Positions 17,441 to 56,753 of a stretch of DNA of 64,000 nucleotides are shown one piece after another. The translations under genes were made by a program, and so were the position numbers. This stretch comes from Bradyrhizobium diazoefficiens (GTDB lineage: Bacteria > Pseudomonadota > Alphaproteobacteria > Rhizobiales > Xanthobacteraceae). Each line of letters starts with the position of its first letter. The stretch's first letter is position 1. Where the stretch lies: contig NZ_CP067100.1 in assembly GCF_016616235.1 (NCBI RefSeq), positions 868,001-932,000 on the forward strand. Direction: 5' to 3'. The notes below the pieces were generated by a model that was not told the origin of the DNA, did no database searches, and worked only from the letters and a program-made list of their open reading frames with translations.

Positions 17441-17445
17441 CTTCT

Positions 17446-17588
17446 TCGCCTCTCCCCGCCTGCGGGGAGAGGCCGGAATTTGCGAGAGCAAATTCCGGGT
17501 GAGGGGACTCTCCGCGAGTCCAACTCTCATCGTGATCGCGGAAGCAGCCCCTCACCCCAGCCCTCTTCCCGTAAGAACGGGAGAGGGA
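17446..17588. repeat. family A palindromic repeat, copy A2
   Basis: The left arm CTCTCCCCGCCTGCGGGGAG forms its own hairpin, then GGAATTTGCGAGAGCAAATTCC is a second palindrome (shown as arms GGAATTTGC/GCAAATTCC), followed by GGGTGAGGGGACTCTCC, CCCCTCACCCC and the right hairpin CTCTTCCCGTAAGAACGGGA. It occupies the gap between the solute-binding gene and lysK. Confidence 0.88.
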
Positions 17589-21727: not shown

Positions 21728-21876
21728 CGCCTCTCCCGCTCGCGGGGAGAGGCCGGAATTTGCGAAAGCAAATTCCGGGTGAGGGGGACTCTCCGCGAGT
21801 CCGTCTCTCACCGTCCTTGCGGAAGCTCCCCCTCATCCCGACCTTCTCCCCGCAAGCGGGAAGAAGGAGAAGGGGC
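21728..21876. repeat. family A palindromic repeat, copy A3 (overlaps the 3' end of the MATE gene)
   Basis: Nearly the same as copy A2: CTCTCCCGCTCGCGGGGAG, the GGAATTTGC/GCAAATTCC palindrome, GTGAGGGGGACTCTCCGCGA, CCCCCTCATCCCGACC and the closing hairpin CTTCTCCCCGCAAGCGGGAA. About 70 bases of it are translated as the C-terminus of the MATE protein on the minus strand. Confidence 0.88.
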
Positions 21877-24260: not shown

Positions 24261-24404
24261 CGCAAACTCCTCAGGCGGATTCGACCCCATTATAGGGCAG
24301 CGCGAGGCACATGGGGAACCCGTAGCGGGGCGTCAATCGGCTTACGGGAGTTTAATTCGGGCCGCGCCGAAGCTTCGGGCGCGCTGGCGCCGGGAGTTCC
24401 TTAA

Positions 24405-24513
24405 CCTCTCCCCGCCTGCGGGGAGAGGTCGGATCGCCCTTGCGATCCGGGTGAGGGGGCACAAGTCTCTCGGCGACCTCTCGTGTGGAGAGAGGCCCCT
24501 CACCCCAACCCTC
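24405..24513. repeat. family A repeat, copy A4, left part (split by the IS4-type element)
   Basis: CCTCTCCCCGCCTGCGGGGA, GGTCGGATCGCCCTTGCGAT with CCGGGTGAGGGGGCAC, and CTCTCCACAC-type material read on the minus strand, ending CCCCTCACCCCAACCCTC. The remainder (CTCTCCCGCAAGCGGGCGAG) continues at 25881-25903 beyond the insertion sequence. The interval 24261-24569 holds no gene, only this repeat and the left end of the IS. Confidence 0.85.
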
Positions 24514-25872
24514 ATAGGCGCTAGGTTTAGCTCTGGACACGAAGAATCTCGATATGATTCAAACTTGGGATGAAGATTCGTCCTGAGATTCTGGATCATT
24601 GGCCGGAGGTGAGTGCGCGACTTCCGGGAGGCTTCGACCTGGAAGCCACGGCGCGGTTACGCGGAGCCTTTACCCGGGCGCGGGAGATTAAGAACGCCGA
24701 GACGCTGTTGCGGTTGGCGCTTGCCTATGGCGGCTTGGGCATGTCGCTGCGTGAGACGTGTGTGTGGGCGGAAGCCGGCGGCATCGTCCGTTTGTCCGAT
24801 CCATCACTGCTCGATCGGCTGTGTAAAGCCGCGCCCTGGCTTGGTGACATTGTGGCTGCGCTGATCGCCGAACAGGCCAAAATGACGGCGGGGAGCTGGG
24901 TTGGGTATCGCCTGCGTGCACTCGACGGAACCTCGATCTGCGAACCGGGAGCTGACCGTACGACGTGGCGGCTGCACGTCGGCTACGATCTGGCAACGGG
25001 TCAGGTTGATCAGCTTGAGCTAACCGACGTGCATGGCGCGGAGAATCTTCAGCGCCTCACCTACGCACACGGCGATATCGTGCTGGGCGACCGCTATTAT
25101 GCGAGGCCGCGCGATCTGCGGCCGGTGATCGAAGCCGGTGCAGACTTCATCGTGCGGACTGGCTGGAACTCGTTGCGCCTGTTGCAGGCCAATGGCGAGC
25201 CCTTTGATCTGTTTGCCGCTCTCGCGGCTCAGTCGGAACAGGAAAGCGAGCTGCAAGTTCGCGTCCACGAGGGCCAGACAAAGACTCCACCGCCGGAGCC
25301 GCTGATCCTGCGCCTCGTCGTGCGACGCAAGCCGCCGGAGCAGGCCGAAACCGAGCGAAAGCGCCTGCTCAAGGATGCCAAGAAGCGCGGCAAGCAACCC
25401 GATCCACGCAGTCTCGAGGCGGCGAAGTACATTCTTCTCCTTACCTCGCTGCCAGTCGCCACCTTCCCACCGGCCGATGTCCTCGCCCTCTATCGCTTCC
25501 GCTGGCAGATCGAGCTGGCATTCAAGCGGTTCAAGAGCTTAGCCGGGCTCGACATGCTGCCAGCCAAGAAGCCTGAACTTGCGCGGGCGTGGATCTACGC
25601 CAGACTGATCGTCGCCATCATCGCTGAACAGATCGCCGGGCAAGTCCCGGACTCTTTCCCCTCTGAGTTCGGAACCACCACAAGCAAGCCCATCGCGTTG
25701 GCGCCTCATGAAGATCGCCCTGGCGACCGTTCGTGCCGCCATTCGTGGACCACTTCTCTGGCAGGCTTTCTGTAATCTCTTCACCCGAGCCCGCCGGCAC
25801 TTCTGCGAACCGCCACGCCGGCGCAGAAAACAATGCGACTATCTACACAAACGCATAACCTAGCGCCCATGT
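24514..25872 (+). mobile_element. IS4-family-like insertion sequence with 11-bp target duplication
   Basis: Inverted ends share GGCGCTAGGTT (24517-24527 and, reversed, 25857-25867). The sequence CCCCAACCCTC occurs directly on both sides (24503-24513 and 25873-25883), an 11-bp duplication in the range usual for IS4-family transposition. Removing the element plus one duplication restores a continuous family A repeat, confirming an insertion into that repeat. One transposase gene, frameshifted near its 3' end. Confidence 0.88.
24570..25863 (+). pseudogene. IS4-family transposase, frameshifted near the C-terminus
   Basis: The main frame runs from ATG 24570 to a stop at 25775 (401 aa). DDE features are visible: LRALDGTSICEP, VLGDRYYARPRDLRP and the YREK-type YRFRWQIELAFKRFKSLAG. 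The family C-terminus is instead found one base out of frame: SRWRLMKIALATVRAAIRG then PLLWQAFCNLFTRARRHF, ending at a TAG at 25861-25863. The shift lies near 25650-25675 (GACTCTTTCCCCTC). The in-frame tail (SKPIALAPHEDRPGDRSCRH) is shadow translation. Either an inactivating indel or, less likely, a programmed shift. Confidence 0.85.
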
Positions 25873-25941: not shown

Positions 25942-27819
25942 TCACGCTTCAATCTCGGCCGCCTCGGCCTTCAGCATCTTTTCCAGCGTTTCCAGCCTAT
26001 CCGCCTCCCGCGGCGGCTTGTCCCAGCGCAGGCGATTGATGCGGGGGAAGCGCATGGCGACGCCGGATTTGTGCCGCGGCGAGCGCTGCAGGCCCTCGAA
26101 CGCCACCTCCAGCACCAAGCCCTTGTCCGCCTCATGGACGACATGGCGGACGGGACCGAATTTTTCGGTGGTGTTGCGGCGGACGAAACGGTCGATCTGC
26201 AGGAGCTCCTCGTCGGTGAAGCCAAAGTAAGCTTTTCCGACCGGCACCAGTTCGTCGCCGGCATCGCCTTCGGTCCAGACGCCAAAGGTGTAGTCGGAAT
26301 AATAGGACGAGCGCTTGCCGTGGCCGCGCTGCGCATACATCAGCACGGCATCGATGATGTGCGGATCGCGCTTCCACTTCCACCATTGGCCCTTCGGCCG
26401 TCCCGGCAGATAAGGCGCATCGCGCCGCTTCAGCATCACGCCTTCGACGGCGTCGGCGTCTTCGCCAGCACCGGCGCTTGCAGGATCGGCGCGTGCAGCG
26501 GTCAATGCGTCCCAGCTTGCGAAGGGAACGGTGGGTGAGAGATCGATGCGCGGATCGTCGAGCTTTGCGATGAATGTCTCCAGCCGCTCGCGCCGCTCCG
26601 CGAACGGCAGCTCGCGCAGATCGTTCTCGTCGTCGCCGAGCAGGTCGTAGGCGCGAAGATGGATCGGAAACTCCTTGATCAGTTTTGGCGAGACGACCTT
26701 GCGGTTGAGCCGCTGTTGCAGCACGTTGAAGCTCTGCACGCGGCCTTCGCGCAGGATCAGTAACTCTCCGTCGATGGCGCCAGGCAGCCGCAGCGACGGT
26801 ACGAGGTCGGGAAAGCTCCCCGTGATGTCCTCGCCGGTGCGCGAATAGAGCCGCGCGGTGATGTGGCCGCGGTCGTCGCGCCCGGCCACCGCCTGAACAC
26901 GGATGCCGTCCCATTTCCATTCGGCGATGTAGTCGGCAGGATCGAGCGCGGCGAAATCGGTGTCCTCGATCGCATGCGCCAGCATCACGGGGCGGAACGG
27001 CGCGGGATCGCGATTGACCGGCTTGTCGGCGCGGCCTTCCAGCCAGGCGAACAGGTCGAGATAGGGCGGCGAGAGGCCCGGCCAGATCAGCTCGATCTCA
27101 TGCGGGTCCTTGTCGCCGAGCGCGGCCGCGGCGGTCTTCGCCAGACGCGCGGAAATGCCAATGCGCAAGGCGCCGGTGACCAGTTTCAGCAGCGCCCAGC
27201 GGCCGGTCTCATCTAACTCGTCGAGCCAGCGTTCGAGCTGCTTGGGCAGCTCGGTCTTGCCAAGCGTGCGCAGCGTGGTGACGACCTCGGTGAGGGTCGG
27301 CGGCGGTGGGTTGTTGTGATTGCTCGGGTGAGGCGCATCACTGGCATCTCGCCCGCGGTACCCCCCTCCCTGACCCTCCCCCGCAAGGGGGGAGGGGACG
27401 GAGAGGTTCGTGCGTCCATCACTCGCTGAATCAATTTCATTGGTCGAGCCCGTCCGTCGCCGCGCGCGCAACTGCGCTCCCTCCCCTCTTGTGGGGGAGG
27501 GTGGGGGAGAGGGGTGGCCCGGAAAAGATTCGCCATTGTTGACGATTCTCCGCGGCCACATCAGCGCCACCGTCTCCGAGAGATCGCCGACATAGTCGTA
27601 ACTCAACCCGAACAGCACCGGGTCGGTGCGTGACGCGATCAAATCGCGGATCAGTGCGGGCTTGGCATGCTTGAAGCTGAGCGCGCCGGTCAGCGCGGCG
27701 AGCGCATAGCCGCGGTCGGGATCGCCGACCTCGCGGAAATAACTGGTGATCAGCCGCAGCTTGTTGTTGCGGCCGGGCTCGTAGGCGAGGCGGTCCAGGA
27801 GTTCGGCGAAGCGGTTCAT
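25942..27819 (-). CDS. ATP-dependent DNA ligase of the ligase-associated damage-response set, with repeat-derived insert
   Basis: 625 aa. Adenylation motif I is KWDG at residues 302-305 (AEWKWDGIRVQA), followed by TARLYSRTGEDIT, AIDGELLI, DAVEGVMLKRRDAPY and the C-terminal OB-fold region with KGQWWKWKRDPHIIDAVLM. The N-terminal domain is split by residues about 98-172, a low-complexity Pro/Gly/Arg-rich segment. Much of it (residues ~100-154) is encoded by family A repeat A5; relatives are near 540-550 aa in my knowledge. The ATGA overlap with the MBL exonuclease gene shows coupling. Works with the exonuclease, the helicase at 31477 and PdeM at 34061 in DNA repair. Confidence 0.92.
   Translation of the reverse strand: MNRFAELLDRLAYEPGRNNKLRLITSYFREVGDPDRGYALAALTGALSFKHAKPALIRDLIASRTDPVLFGLSYDYVGDLSETVALMWPRRIVNNGESFPGHPSPPPSPTRGEGAQLRARRRTGSTNEIDSASDGRTNLSVPSPLAGEGQGGGYRGRDASDAPHPSNHNNPPPPTLTEVVTTLRTLGKTELPKQLERWLDELDETGRWALLKLVTGALRIGISARLAKTAAAALGDKDPHEIELIWPGLSPPYLDLFAWLEGRADKPVNRDPAPFRPVMLAHAIEDTDFAALDPADYIAEWKWDGIRVQAVAGRDDRGHITARLYSRTGEDITGSFPDLVPSLRLPGAIDGELLILREGRVQSFNVLQQRLNRKVVSPKLIKEFPIHLRAYDLLGDDENDLRELPFAERRERLETFIAKLDDPRIDLSPTVPFASWDALTAARADPASAGAGEDADAVEGVMLKRRDAPYLPGRPKGQWWKWKRDPHIIDAVLMYAQRGHGKRSSYYSDYTFGVWTEGDAGDELVPVGKAYFGFTDEELLQIDRFVRRNTTEKFGPVRHVVHEADKGLVLEVAFEGLQRSPRHKSGVAMRFPRINRLRWDKPPREADRLETLEKMLKAEAAEIEA
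27359..27520. repeat. family A-like repeat, copy A5, inside the DNA ligase coding sequence
   Basis: CCTCCCTGACCCTCCCCCGC, then AAGGGGGGAGGGGACGGAGA, and at the other end CTCCCTCCCCTCTTGTGGGG with GAGGGTGGGGGAGAGGGG. The interval is 162 bases, divisible by three, and carries no stop in the ligase frame. It translates to SPPPSPTRGEGAQLRARRR and NLSVPSPLAGEGQGGGY, typical of translated family A copies. Confidence 0.85.
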
Positions 27820-31269: not shown

Positions 31270-31419
31270 TCTCTTCCCTCGCCCCGCTTGCGGGGAGAGG
31301 GTAGGGTGAGGGGGAGTCTCCGCAGGGACGCTGGCAGTTGGATGCGCGGAGACTCCCCCTCACCCGGAATTCGCGCTGGCGCGCAAATTCCGGCCTCTCC
31401 CCGCACGCGGGGAGAGGCG
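31270..31419. repeat. family A palindromic repeat, copy A6
   Basis: CCTCGCCCCGCTTGCGGGGA with GAGGGTAGGGTGAGGGGGAG on the left, and TCCCCCTCACCCGGAATTCG, GCAAATTCCGGCCTCTCCCC, GCACGCGGGGAGAGGCGA on the right. It fills the space before the helicase; the helicase frame is open through it, but that translation (MSLPSPRLRGEGRVRGSL) is repeat-like and I exclude it from the gene. Confidence 0.87.
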
Positions 31420-31476
31420 AAGGAAGCCCCGCCCCACCCCTCGACGAACCCGCGCCCACGGCTTACCTGTCATGCC

Positions 31477-38628: not shown

Positions 38629-38773
38629 TGCGCTCCCTCGCCCCGCTCTTGCAGGGAGAGGGATGGGGTGAGGGGCCTCTCTCCACACTTGAGGTCGTCG
38701 ATGGACCTGTACCCCCTCACCCGCATCACATCTGGCGATGTGATCCGACCTCTCCCCGCAAGCGGGGCGAGGT
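38629..38773. repeat. family A palindromic repeat, copy A7
   Basis: CTCCCTCGCCCCGCTCTTGC, AGGGAGAGGGATGGGGTGAG, GGGCCTCTCTCCACACTTGA, then TACCCCCTCACCCGCATCAC with hairpin CATCTGGCGATG, and CTCTCCCCGCAAGCGGGGCG. It separates the LysE gene from the polA stop. Confidence 0.9.
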
Positions 38774-50761: not shown

Positions 50762-50899
50762 CGCTCCCTCGCCCCGTTCTTACGGGGAGAGGGTTGGGGG
50801 TGAGGGGCCTCTCTCCACACGTGTGATGGCAGTGGGACCTGTACCCCCTCACCCGGATTGCTTCGCAATCCGACCTCTCCCCGCAAGCGGGGCGAGGTT
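50762..50899. repeat. family A palindromic repeat, copy A8
   Basis: CTCCCTCGCCCCGTTCTTAC, GGGGAGAGGGTTGGGGGTGA, GGGGCCTCTCTCCACACGTG, ACCCCCTCACCCGGATTGCT with palindrome GGATTGCTTCGCAATCC, and CTCTCCCCGCAAGCGGGGCG. Lies between phosphomannomutase and the convergent Lrp gene. Confidence 0.92.
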
Positions 50900-52953: not shown

Positions 52954-53068
52954 ATGCGTTTCCGGATGGCCCGTTGGCGCGGGCTGGTTGGTGCCACCAT
53001 ACGATAGGGAGTCCGGTAGGGGAAGGATTGGGCCCCGCTGCCGCTGCATACGCGGTCGTCGCTTTCTT

Positions 53069-53202
53069 CTCCCTCTCCCCGTTCTTACGGGGAGAGGGTT
53101 GGGTGAGGGGCCTCTCTCCACACGTGACACCGTCGAGAGACCTGTACCCCCTCACCCGGATCGCAAGAGCGATCCGACCTCTCCCCGCAAGCGGGGTGAG
53201 GT
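53069..53202. repeat. family A palindromic repeat, copy A9
   Basis: CTCCCTCTCCCCGTTCTTAC, GGGGAGAGGGTTGGGTGAGG, GGCCTCTCTCCACACGTGAC, TACCCCCTCACCCGGATCGC with palindrome GGATCGCAAGAGCGATCC, and CTCTCCCCGCAAGCGGGGTG. It is nearly identical in layout to copies A7 and A8, in the 276-bp gap between the enolase-family and HIT genes. Confidence 0.93.
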
Positions 53203-53229
53203 GAAGCGGAGCGCGCCGCCGAATCCTCT

Positions 53230-56574: not shown

Positions 56575-56631
56575 ACTCTTTCGGACCTCAGTCGCGTAAT
56601 GGCTTGGAAAGTTCGAGCCGCGCGCTCGCTG

Positions 56632-56753
56632 CACCTCTCCCGCTTGCGGGAGAGGTCGGCGCGAAGCGCCGGGTGAGGGCTCTCTCCTCTTGGGGAATCT
56701 CCCTAGAGGAGACACCCTCACCCCAGCCCTCTCCCGCAAGCGGGAGAGGGAGT
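56632..56753. repeat. family A palindromic repeat, copy A10
   Basis: CCTCTCCCGCTTGCGGGAGA hairpin, GGTCGGCGCGAAGCGCCGGG, GAATCTCCCTAGAGGAGACA, CCCTCACCCCAGCCCTCTCC and closing hairpin CTCCCGCAAGCGGGAGAG. It lies inside the transport operon, between the binding-protein and permease genes, where an mRNA hairpin could raise binding-protein output relative to the permease. Confidence 0.9.

Follow-up and report, generated by a model that had tools for sequence, protein, structure and literature searches.

A palindromic repeat carried in frame within a DNA repair ligase gene of Bradyrhizobium evolves in concert with the dispersed pool of related repeats in the same genome, either by gene conversion or through a shared binding factor. 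The copy that we describe lies in a window of 64,000 nucleotides of Bradyrhizobium diazoefficiens (genome G000; genomes are numbered with G and extracted loci with L). We propose that a pair of REP-like palindromes, family A, arranged with their tails outward, sits in frame in what would be a permissive linker of the ligase, and that the insert is most likely translated into a spacer, rich in Pro and Gly and probably unstructured, that the enzyme tolerates. Selection would keep the frame, which is indeed conserved, and the absence of stop codons, while ectopic gene conversion between the ligase copy and the pool, with template switching between the two arms as a possible added cause, may bring about the concerted change of the arms. 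Taken as a whole, an in-frame spacer in a recurrently occupied linker, with alleles exchanged and arms converted with the pool, is an explanation that we regard as reasonably probable. The features of the window copy are as follows.

25942..27819, minus strand: ATP-dependent DNA ligase ORF with the in-frame repeat, 625 aa, TIGR04120
27816..28877, minus strand: ligase-associated DNA damage response exonuclease, TIGR04122, the upstream neighbour of the ligase gene
27304..27549, minus strand: occupied linker of 246 nt (codons 91-172), against mostly 30 nt in empty orthologues
27474..27528, minus strand, approximate ends: left arm and outward tail (TCTTTTCCGGGCCACCCC...GGAGGGAGCGC)
27479..27501, minus strand: left inner hairpin CCCTCCCCCACAAGAGGGGAGGG, loop ACAAG, T-type
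27408..27473, minus strand: middle segment, with no match elsewhere in G000 and varying alike across species at all codon positions
27343..27407, minus strand, approximate ends: right arm and outward tail (CTCTCCGTCCCC...GGTACCGCGGGCGAGATGCC)
27374..27396, minus strand: right inner hairpin CCCTCCCCCCTTGCGGGGGAGGG, loop CTTGC, C-type
27304..27318, minus strand: HNNPP codons bordering the insert, retained in nearly all filled and empty alleles seen

The ligase belongs to the cisplatin damage response family, with a full-length match to TIGR04120 over residues 3-616 (809 bits against a cut-off of 400), and its reading frame is open across the repeat, from codon 91 to codon 172, without a stop. 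The linker has 82 codons and that of empty orthologues 10, giving an insert of 72 extra codons. When aligned with the solved ligases 9df9 and 9dfa, the linker site corresponds to a short stretch between GDLGESVAL and LTIKRV, before the catalytic part, and read by eye the KWDG motif and the downstream part of the ligase are intact, as an earlier note on this DNA had said of KWDG and the later motifs. An AlphaFold model of the ligase was set aside (mean pLDDT 38, shallow alignment). A second in-frame palindromic insert, of 22 residues net, is found in the nucleotidyltransferase domain of four ligases (L031, L206, L207 and L208 in G004, G131, G142 and G221), with a similar stretch in L009 (83% over 46 nt). 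Beside the ligase gene, an ORF at 24570-25775 of the window appears by eye to be an IS-type transposase-like gene and adjoins a palindromic repeat.

Measured by its tails, the element extends from about 27528 to about 27343. Folded as RNA, positions 27330-27540 are predicted to form one long stem, an inverted repeat with inner hairpins (MFE -116.4 kcal/mol; z -5.5; matched by none of 200 shuffles), and the ligase repeat is thus, in the sense used for REPINs, an inverted REP doublet able to fold into a single hairpin. A search of G000 with the element DNA gave 84 matches in 40 clusters at E <= 0.01, the ligase included. The earlier note had called this a palindromic repeat in frame inside a ligase gene, and the open frame, the strong fold and the matches of the arms to 39 other clusters of the genome bear this out; its span of 27359-27520 does hold a real repeat but falls slightly short of the linker that comparison with empty orthologues defines as occupied. 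The right-hairpin 23-mer has no other exact match in the G000 genome. A search of Rfam returned four matches at E <= 1, all under their gathering scores; the one that falls on the repeat itself, MIR1858 over 27355-27523, scored 23 bits (E 0.76) where its gathering score is 137, and was taken as chance.

A ligase match was present in 211 of 213 genomes of the genus, 98 of the 211 matching an empty-type query in one piece. Both flanks could be extracted in 163 loci (162 of the genus, and L037 from a different family), after four loci with a missing flank (L025, L036, L095, L140) and two non-ligase pieces (L038, L039) had been dropped; most of the filled loci were fetched but only part of the empty ones, and empty alleles are under-represented. 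Among the 162 genus loci, 58 have linkers of 42 nt or less, referred to here as empty, and 104 have longer linkers that carry inserts (the left edge of L201 being uncertain). The empty linkers are mostly 30 nt, counted from codon 91, and end in AAHNNPP, AGHNNPP or PGHNNPP, and by eye they do not resemble simple deletion products of the filled ones. Of the inserts longer than 42 nt, 101 of 104 are multiples of three and open, which against an expectation of 1/3 gives a binomial p of 4e-44 if shared ancestry is ignored, and those of family A add a median of 72 codons. The exceptions are L033 (G006), L093 (G172) and L121 (G185); G185 is a single-contig genome, and its L121 may have a real frameshift or a phase-variable C tract. 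That an intergenic repeat had come to lie inside a gene, as the earlier note held, agrees with the linker of about 10 codons at the same place in empty orthologues and with the membership of the insert in a dispersed family. The note had also proposed that orthologues be compared, naming a shared long insert of unrelated sequence, or a normal conserved linker, as findings that would speak against it; the orthologues, part filled and part empty, show neither.

The pattern of variation indicates at what level the insert is constrained. In 82 family A inserts the arms have a mean entropy of 0.20-0.34 bit at each codon position, against 1.36-1.46 bits at each codon position of the middle. The arm prolines are written CCC in 76-79 of 80 rows, whereas at conserved prolines in the rest of the ligase the third position averages 1.01 bits; a few arm positions are not frozen (for example alignment codons 16, 36 and 124, at 0.85-1.42 bits). 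Arms that are nearly frozen even at synonymous sites, next to an evenly varying middle, argue for weak protein selection apart from that on the frame, and the nearly frozen synonymous sites suggest that something holds the arms as DNA or RNA. These data also bear on the possibility that selection acts on the insert as a functional linker of the protein, its DNA form being incidental. The frame kept in 101 of 104 inserts and conserved arm peptides such as PSPLAGEGQGGG would be consistent with such a linker, but the third positions of the arms are nearly frozen in a way that those of the rest of the ligase are not, the middle is equally variable at all three codon positions, unrelated repeats give unrelated peptides at the same place and 58 of the 162 loci have no insert, and so we consider it very improbable. 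Nor do we give much credence to the insert being absent from the final protein, through ribosomes bypassing the hairpin or the gene making two polypeptides. The predicted mRNA hairpin is very stable, and three of the 104 inserted linkers are out of frame, one of them (L121) in the single-contig genome G185, as might be expected under bypass or two polypeptides; however, conservation of the frame in the other 101 would then be unnecessary, and we consider this, too, very improbable. A translated spacer whose frame is kept is the reading that we prefer.

Family A is not the only occupant of the linker. Hand scoring of 160 in-frame ligases, of which 159 belong to the genus and one is an outgroup, gave 82 alleles of family A, decayed remnants included, 58 empty, nine of family C, five of family B, three with A and B, one with A and C, one unclear and the one outgroup. 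Family C has inverted ends, TCTTC...GAAGA, begins at the same left boundary after codon 90 in seven of nine copies and by eye shows a possible 3-base AAG duplication; in family A a decayed duplication around CACAAC, also seen by eye, is suggestive only, terminal inverted repeats and a target-site duplication being what a MITE would have. Sequence related to family C occurs elsewhere in the window and in other loci. Other repeats in the window lie at 17444-17575, 21735-21872, 24400-24513, 31304-31422, 38633-38730, 50764-50862, 53065-53212 and 56627-56752, and several of them are related to family C arms. Family B is multicopy in six of eight genomes searched, with 7-60 matches each when overlapping matches on both strands are counted, and gave no match in the remaining two, G000 and G131.

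In a survey of the order, a ligase match was found in 190 of 297 genomes, and outside the genus we examined ten linkers from three other families together with L037. The ten were chosen mostly for split or long matches and thus give no estimate of frequency. Of the eleven, nine measure 99-444 nt, another 81 nt and the last, which is empty, 33 nt; every one is a multiple of three. Among the nine long ones (L269-L276 and L037), seven have a better fold than every one of 100 shuffles (z from -3.2 to -10.0), while L269 (z -1.6), L275 (z -0.6) and the 81-nt linker do not fold better than all 100. By eye the seven folding inserts are of several kinds, one of which, L276, is family A-like with its tails outward. 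The ligase linker is a recurrent docking place, occupied by at least three families (A, B and C) in the genus and, in other families of the order, by further inserts that are mostly palindromic.

Elsewhere in G000, many family A clusters are hairpin pairs with their tails inward, whereas those of the ligase copy point outward. The label 'family A-like' in the earlier note thus holds for the arms, with the caveat that the layout differs from that of many pairs in this genome. Counting exact 23-base arms of the main loop type and subtracting the ligase's own pair, the ratio of tails-in to tails-out pairs is 4:0 in G000, 5:0 in G149, 5:2 in G201 and 4:5 in G010 (raw tails-out counts with the ligase included are 1 in G149, 3 in G201 and 6 in G010), from which it follows that both layouts exist in the genus. 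A further copy lies between ruvA and ruvC, and its matches in other genomes are mostly units of about 168 bp. In 29 of 30 genomes the ruvA-ruvC spacer could be measured; five have family A, three another repeat, one a longer unrelated sequence and 20 only 11 nt. The two arms of all five family A copies carry matching loops, which makes covariation of arms a property of the family and not one specific to the ligase. Single copies can nevertheless differ from the pool, as does the ruvA-ruvC copy of G130, which is T-type in a genome whose pool has a C majority (13 T, 25 C).

The distribution of filled and empty alleles is patchy. Placed on the gene tree, family A requires 43 changes, at least 27 of them forced by well-supported (starred) branches, against a shuffled mean of 53.9. 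Across 140 rows the state, family A or empty, is weakly linked to the flanks, with nearest neighbours alike in 0.53-0.65 of cases, where chance would give 0.51. Linkage is strongest with the 270 bp upstream (37 changes; 44.9 when shuffled, sd 2.9), and the 270 bp downstream show no linkage to the state (43 against 44.7). Sister pairs of filled and empty alleles have no consistent peak of divergence at the junction, although one pair, L142 and L163, does have such a peak, of 0.156 on both sides. Filled and empty alleles have thus replaced each other many times.

The route of replacement can be read in more than one way, as the patchiness fits short-tract allelic exchange or frequent insertion and loss alike. 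One possibility is that mobile elements insert independently and often at a preferred target and are precisely excised, with no allelic exchange. The weak link between state and flanks, even in 135-bp windows, the sister pairs examined without a consistent divergence tract around the junction and the matching ends of family C (TCTTC.../...GAAGA), with a shared left boundary in most of its copies, would all be consistent with this. On the other hand, family A alleles across the genus agree in their outer flanks and in having the tails outward, the middle of the window copy has no second match in G000, and the empty linkers share sequence that is not the simple deletion product of filled ones. 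The shared outer flanks suggest that family A entered the ligase once, long ago, and that its alleles were then exchanged or lost, without repeated jumps, and on this sequence comparison we take independent insertion with precise excision to be possible but the less likely course. Replacement mainly by short-tract allelic recombination, with some insertion and loss, is most likely. The earlier suggestion that these repeats move and can enter genes is supported in so far as several families occupy the same linker; the inserts may have arisen by transposition, but for family A the shared flanks weigh against repeated jumps.

The two arms of a single ligase copy do not change independently of each other. 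Their loops covary, with G/C in 41 copies, A/T in 30, A/C in five, G/G in two and G/T in one (n=79), and on the tree the loops change 20 and 19 times for the two arms and 24 times jointly. For comparison with the pool, both loop variants (CTTG[C/T]G) of the 23-base hairpin were counted in 49 genomes, 46 of them with a family A insert in the ligase; exact arms that belong to the ligase were subtracted, and G063, which has no other copies, and G076, which has another letter, were left out, giving 44 genomes. Here 17 ligases are T/T with a T pool, 22 are C/C with a C pool, one is C/C with a T pool and four have unlike arms. In other words, the ligase loop letter is that of the pool majority in 39 of 40 genomes with like arms, the mismatch being G139, where both arms are C-type and the pool has a T majority (7 to 4). 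The genomes with one arm of each type are G000, whose pool is 16 to 0 for T, G012, G210 and G211, and in five of the 44 at least one arm is off the pool majority.

When relatedness is considered, no pair goes against the match with the pool. Among independent pairs on supported branches of the ligase tree, the left arm and the pool change the same way in 5-6 of 8 and the opposite way in none (median p 0.03), and the right arm does so in 4-5 of 5, again without an opposite pair (median p 0.0625). A tree of rpoB from 30 of these genomes has 12 changes of the pool state, seven of which the starred branches force, and 11 of the left loop; pairs agree for the left arm in a mean of 6.5 of 7, with none opposite (median p 0.016), and for the right arm in 5.4 of 6, where the median p is again 0.0625. 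Taken by itself, the right-arm test stays above 0.05 on both trees. Concert was tested at one polymorphic position and with few independent pairs (5-8, supported branches). At that position the arms are shown to equal the dispersed copies of their genome, the loop letter going with the pool, and the unlike arms of four genomes look like intermediates.

What holds the arms to the pool may be either conversion or selection. Gene conversion over 23-40 bp is near the lower limit for bacterial recombination. An alternative to it is that the arms are held by selection, with a genome-specific DNA- or RNA-binding factor (transposase-like, a nucleoid protein or an RNase) recognising the hairpin, such that every copy, the coding one too, retains the letter which the factor prefers. 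Near-frozen synonymous positions in the arms, the paired change of both arms and the pool match would all be expected of such a factor, and REPs and RAYT transposases have been described as co-evolving, in the accessible part of PMC3116915. However, many species have no insert (58 of 162 loci, with 98 of 211 genomes matching the empty-type query), and the ligase copy is thus not needed; moreover, pools are mixed in several genomes, such as G130 with its 13 T and 25 C. We therefore regard selection through a binding factor as somewhat doubtful, and prefer ectopic gene conversion as the probable cause.

The earlier note had also proposed a search of the genome for other in-frame copies. In G000, sequence was taken for 39 of the 40 clusters (all except that at 7564195) and 30 covering ORFs of at least 200 aa were compared with Pfam, this set leaving aside ORFs L065 and L067 and those under 200 aa. 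Domains were found in five of the 30, a MurA-type protein, RuvA, a histidine biosynthesis protein, DUF559 and UvrB. In the first four the repeat lies ahead of the domain and by its coordinates is probably upstream of the start. In uvrB one family A arm lies in frame within the conserved N-terminal region (L054/L299, G000:C1:1457332-1458096), and this is the only other cluster, among the 39 of 40, found inside a conserved coding region. From 40 genomes searched we took 30 uvrB loci (L300-L328 relatives); nine have repeat-derived peptides in that region by reading, or five when a simple hairpin pattern is used, and the linkers of all 30 are multiples of three. In G000, G151 and G141 the exact uvrB arms agree with the pool in being T-type. 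A search with the insert peptide did not report the uvrB copy in G000, which is read in another frame; each of the best 120 of 271 matches to the insert peptide was a ligase, and copies in other frames could escape it. Both coding copies found in G000 are in DNA-repair genes, two genes being too few for a test of enrichment.

Among the closest known systems are the Rickettsia palindromic elements (RPE), dispersed palindromes that lie in frame in genes for conserved proteins and whose presence varies between species. The ligase repeat is likewise dispersed, in frame and patchy between species, a likeness of behaviour; the parallel drawn in the earlier note stands on the dispersed repeat, the orthologues without the element and the kept frame, and its interpretation is supported overall. 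What sets the Bradyrhizobium case apart is that several unrelated families have settled at a single codon site and that the coding copy follows the intergenic ones. The accessible part of PMC3733652, which mentions RPE-1, RPE-4 and RPE-6, describes intragenic REP dimers and singles of the GTAG and CGTC superfamilies, many of them in DNA repair genes, including uvrA, uvrB (R. conorii), recB, polymerase genes and a DNA ligase (O. terrae, for which alone ligase is named in the main text, once), with two Xanthomonas recB genes carrying REPs at about the same site, and suggests that location in repair genes is not fortuitous. The residence of family A in the ligase and in uvrB agrees with this. Family A hairpins, however, appear by eye to begin with C-G pairs (CCC/GGG), where CGTC stems begin with A-T pairs; no GTAG or CGTC tag could be placed in family A by eye; and family A adds a median of 72 codons, whereas PMC3733652 reports 20-30 amino acids for its dimers or grouped repeats, and 43-82 where clusters are larger.

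In layout and predicted fold the repeat resembles REPINs and BIMEs, as two imperfect palindromes, inverted and able to form one long hairpin, but here it is the copy in a coding sequence that is central. The RU repeats of enterobacteria, small mobile repeats with open frames within genes (PMC2759123), are other repeats in other hosts, and concerted change is not mentioned in the accessible part of that paper.

How REP-type palindromes stay uniform, by jumping, conversion or selection, is an old question. The title of a 1988 paper by Higgins reportedly asks whether REPs evolve by gene conversion. In addition to that proposal, a copy locked in one gene allows a test against the pool, and the ligase copy, which occupies the same codon position in 82 of the species examined, can serve as a natural marker for it, since its position, layout and flanks are fixed while its hairpins follow the pool, a pattern that re-insertion of whole elements would not easily yield. 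Our literature search, among open-licence papers, found no mention of an in-frame repeat within the ligase of a Bradyrhizobium. REPs inside repair genes are already known, and a coding copy that follows the pool appears new. We put forward more tentatively, and as less likely than not, that ectopic conversion homogenises palindromes genome-wide and rewrites coding copies, such that a repair-enzyme peptide is edited by non-coding repeats, with repair genes preferred, which earlier authors had suspected, and repair perhaps tuned in this way. The finding is one more example for the view that palindromes within genes gather in those for DNA repair, and presents a conserved enzyme in which the sequence of one loop would be set by the genome-wide turnover of a repeat.
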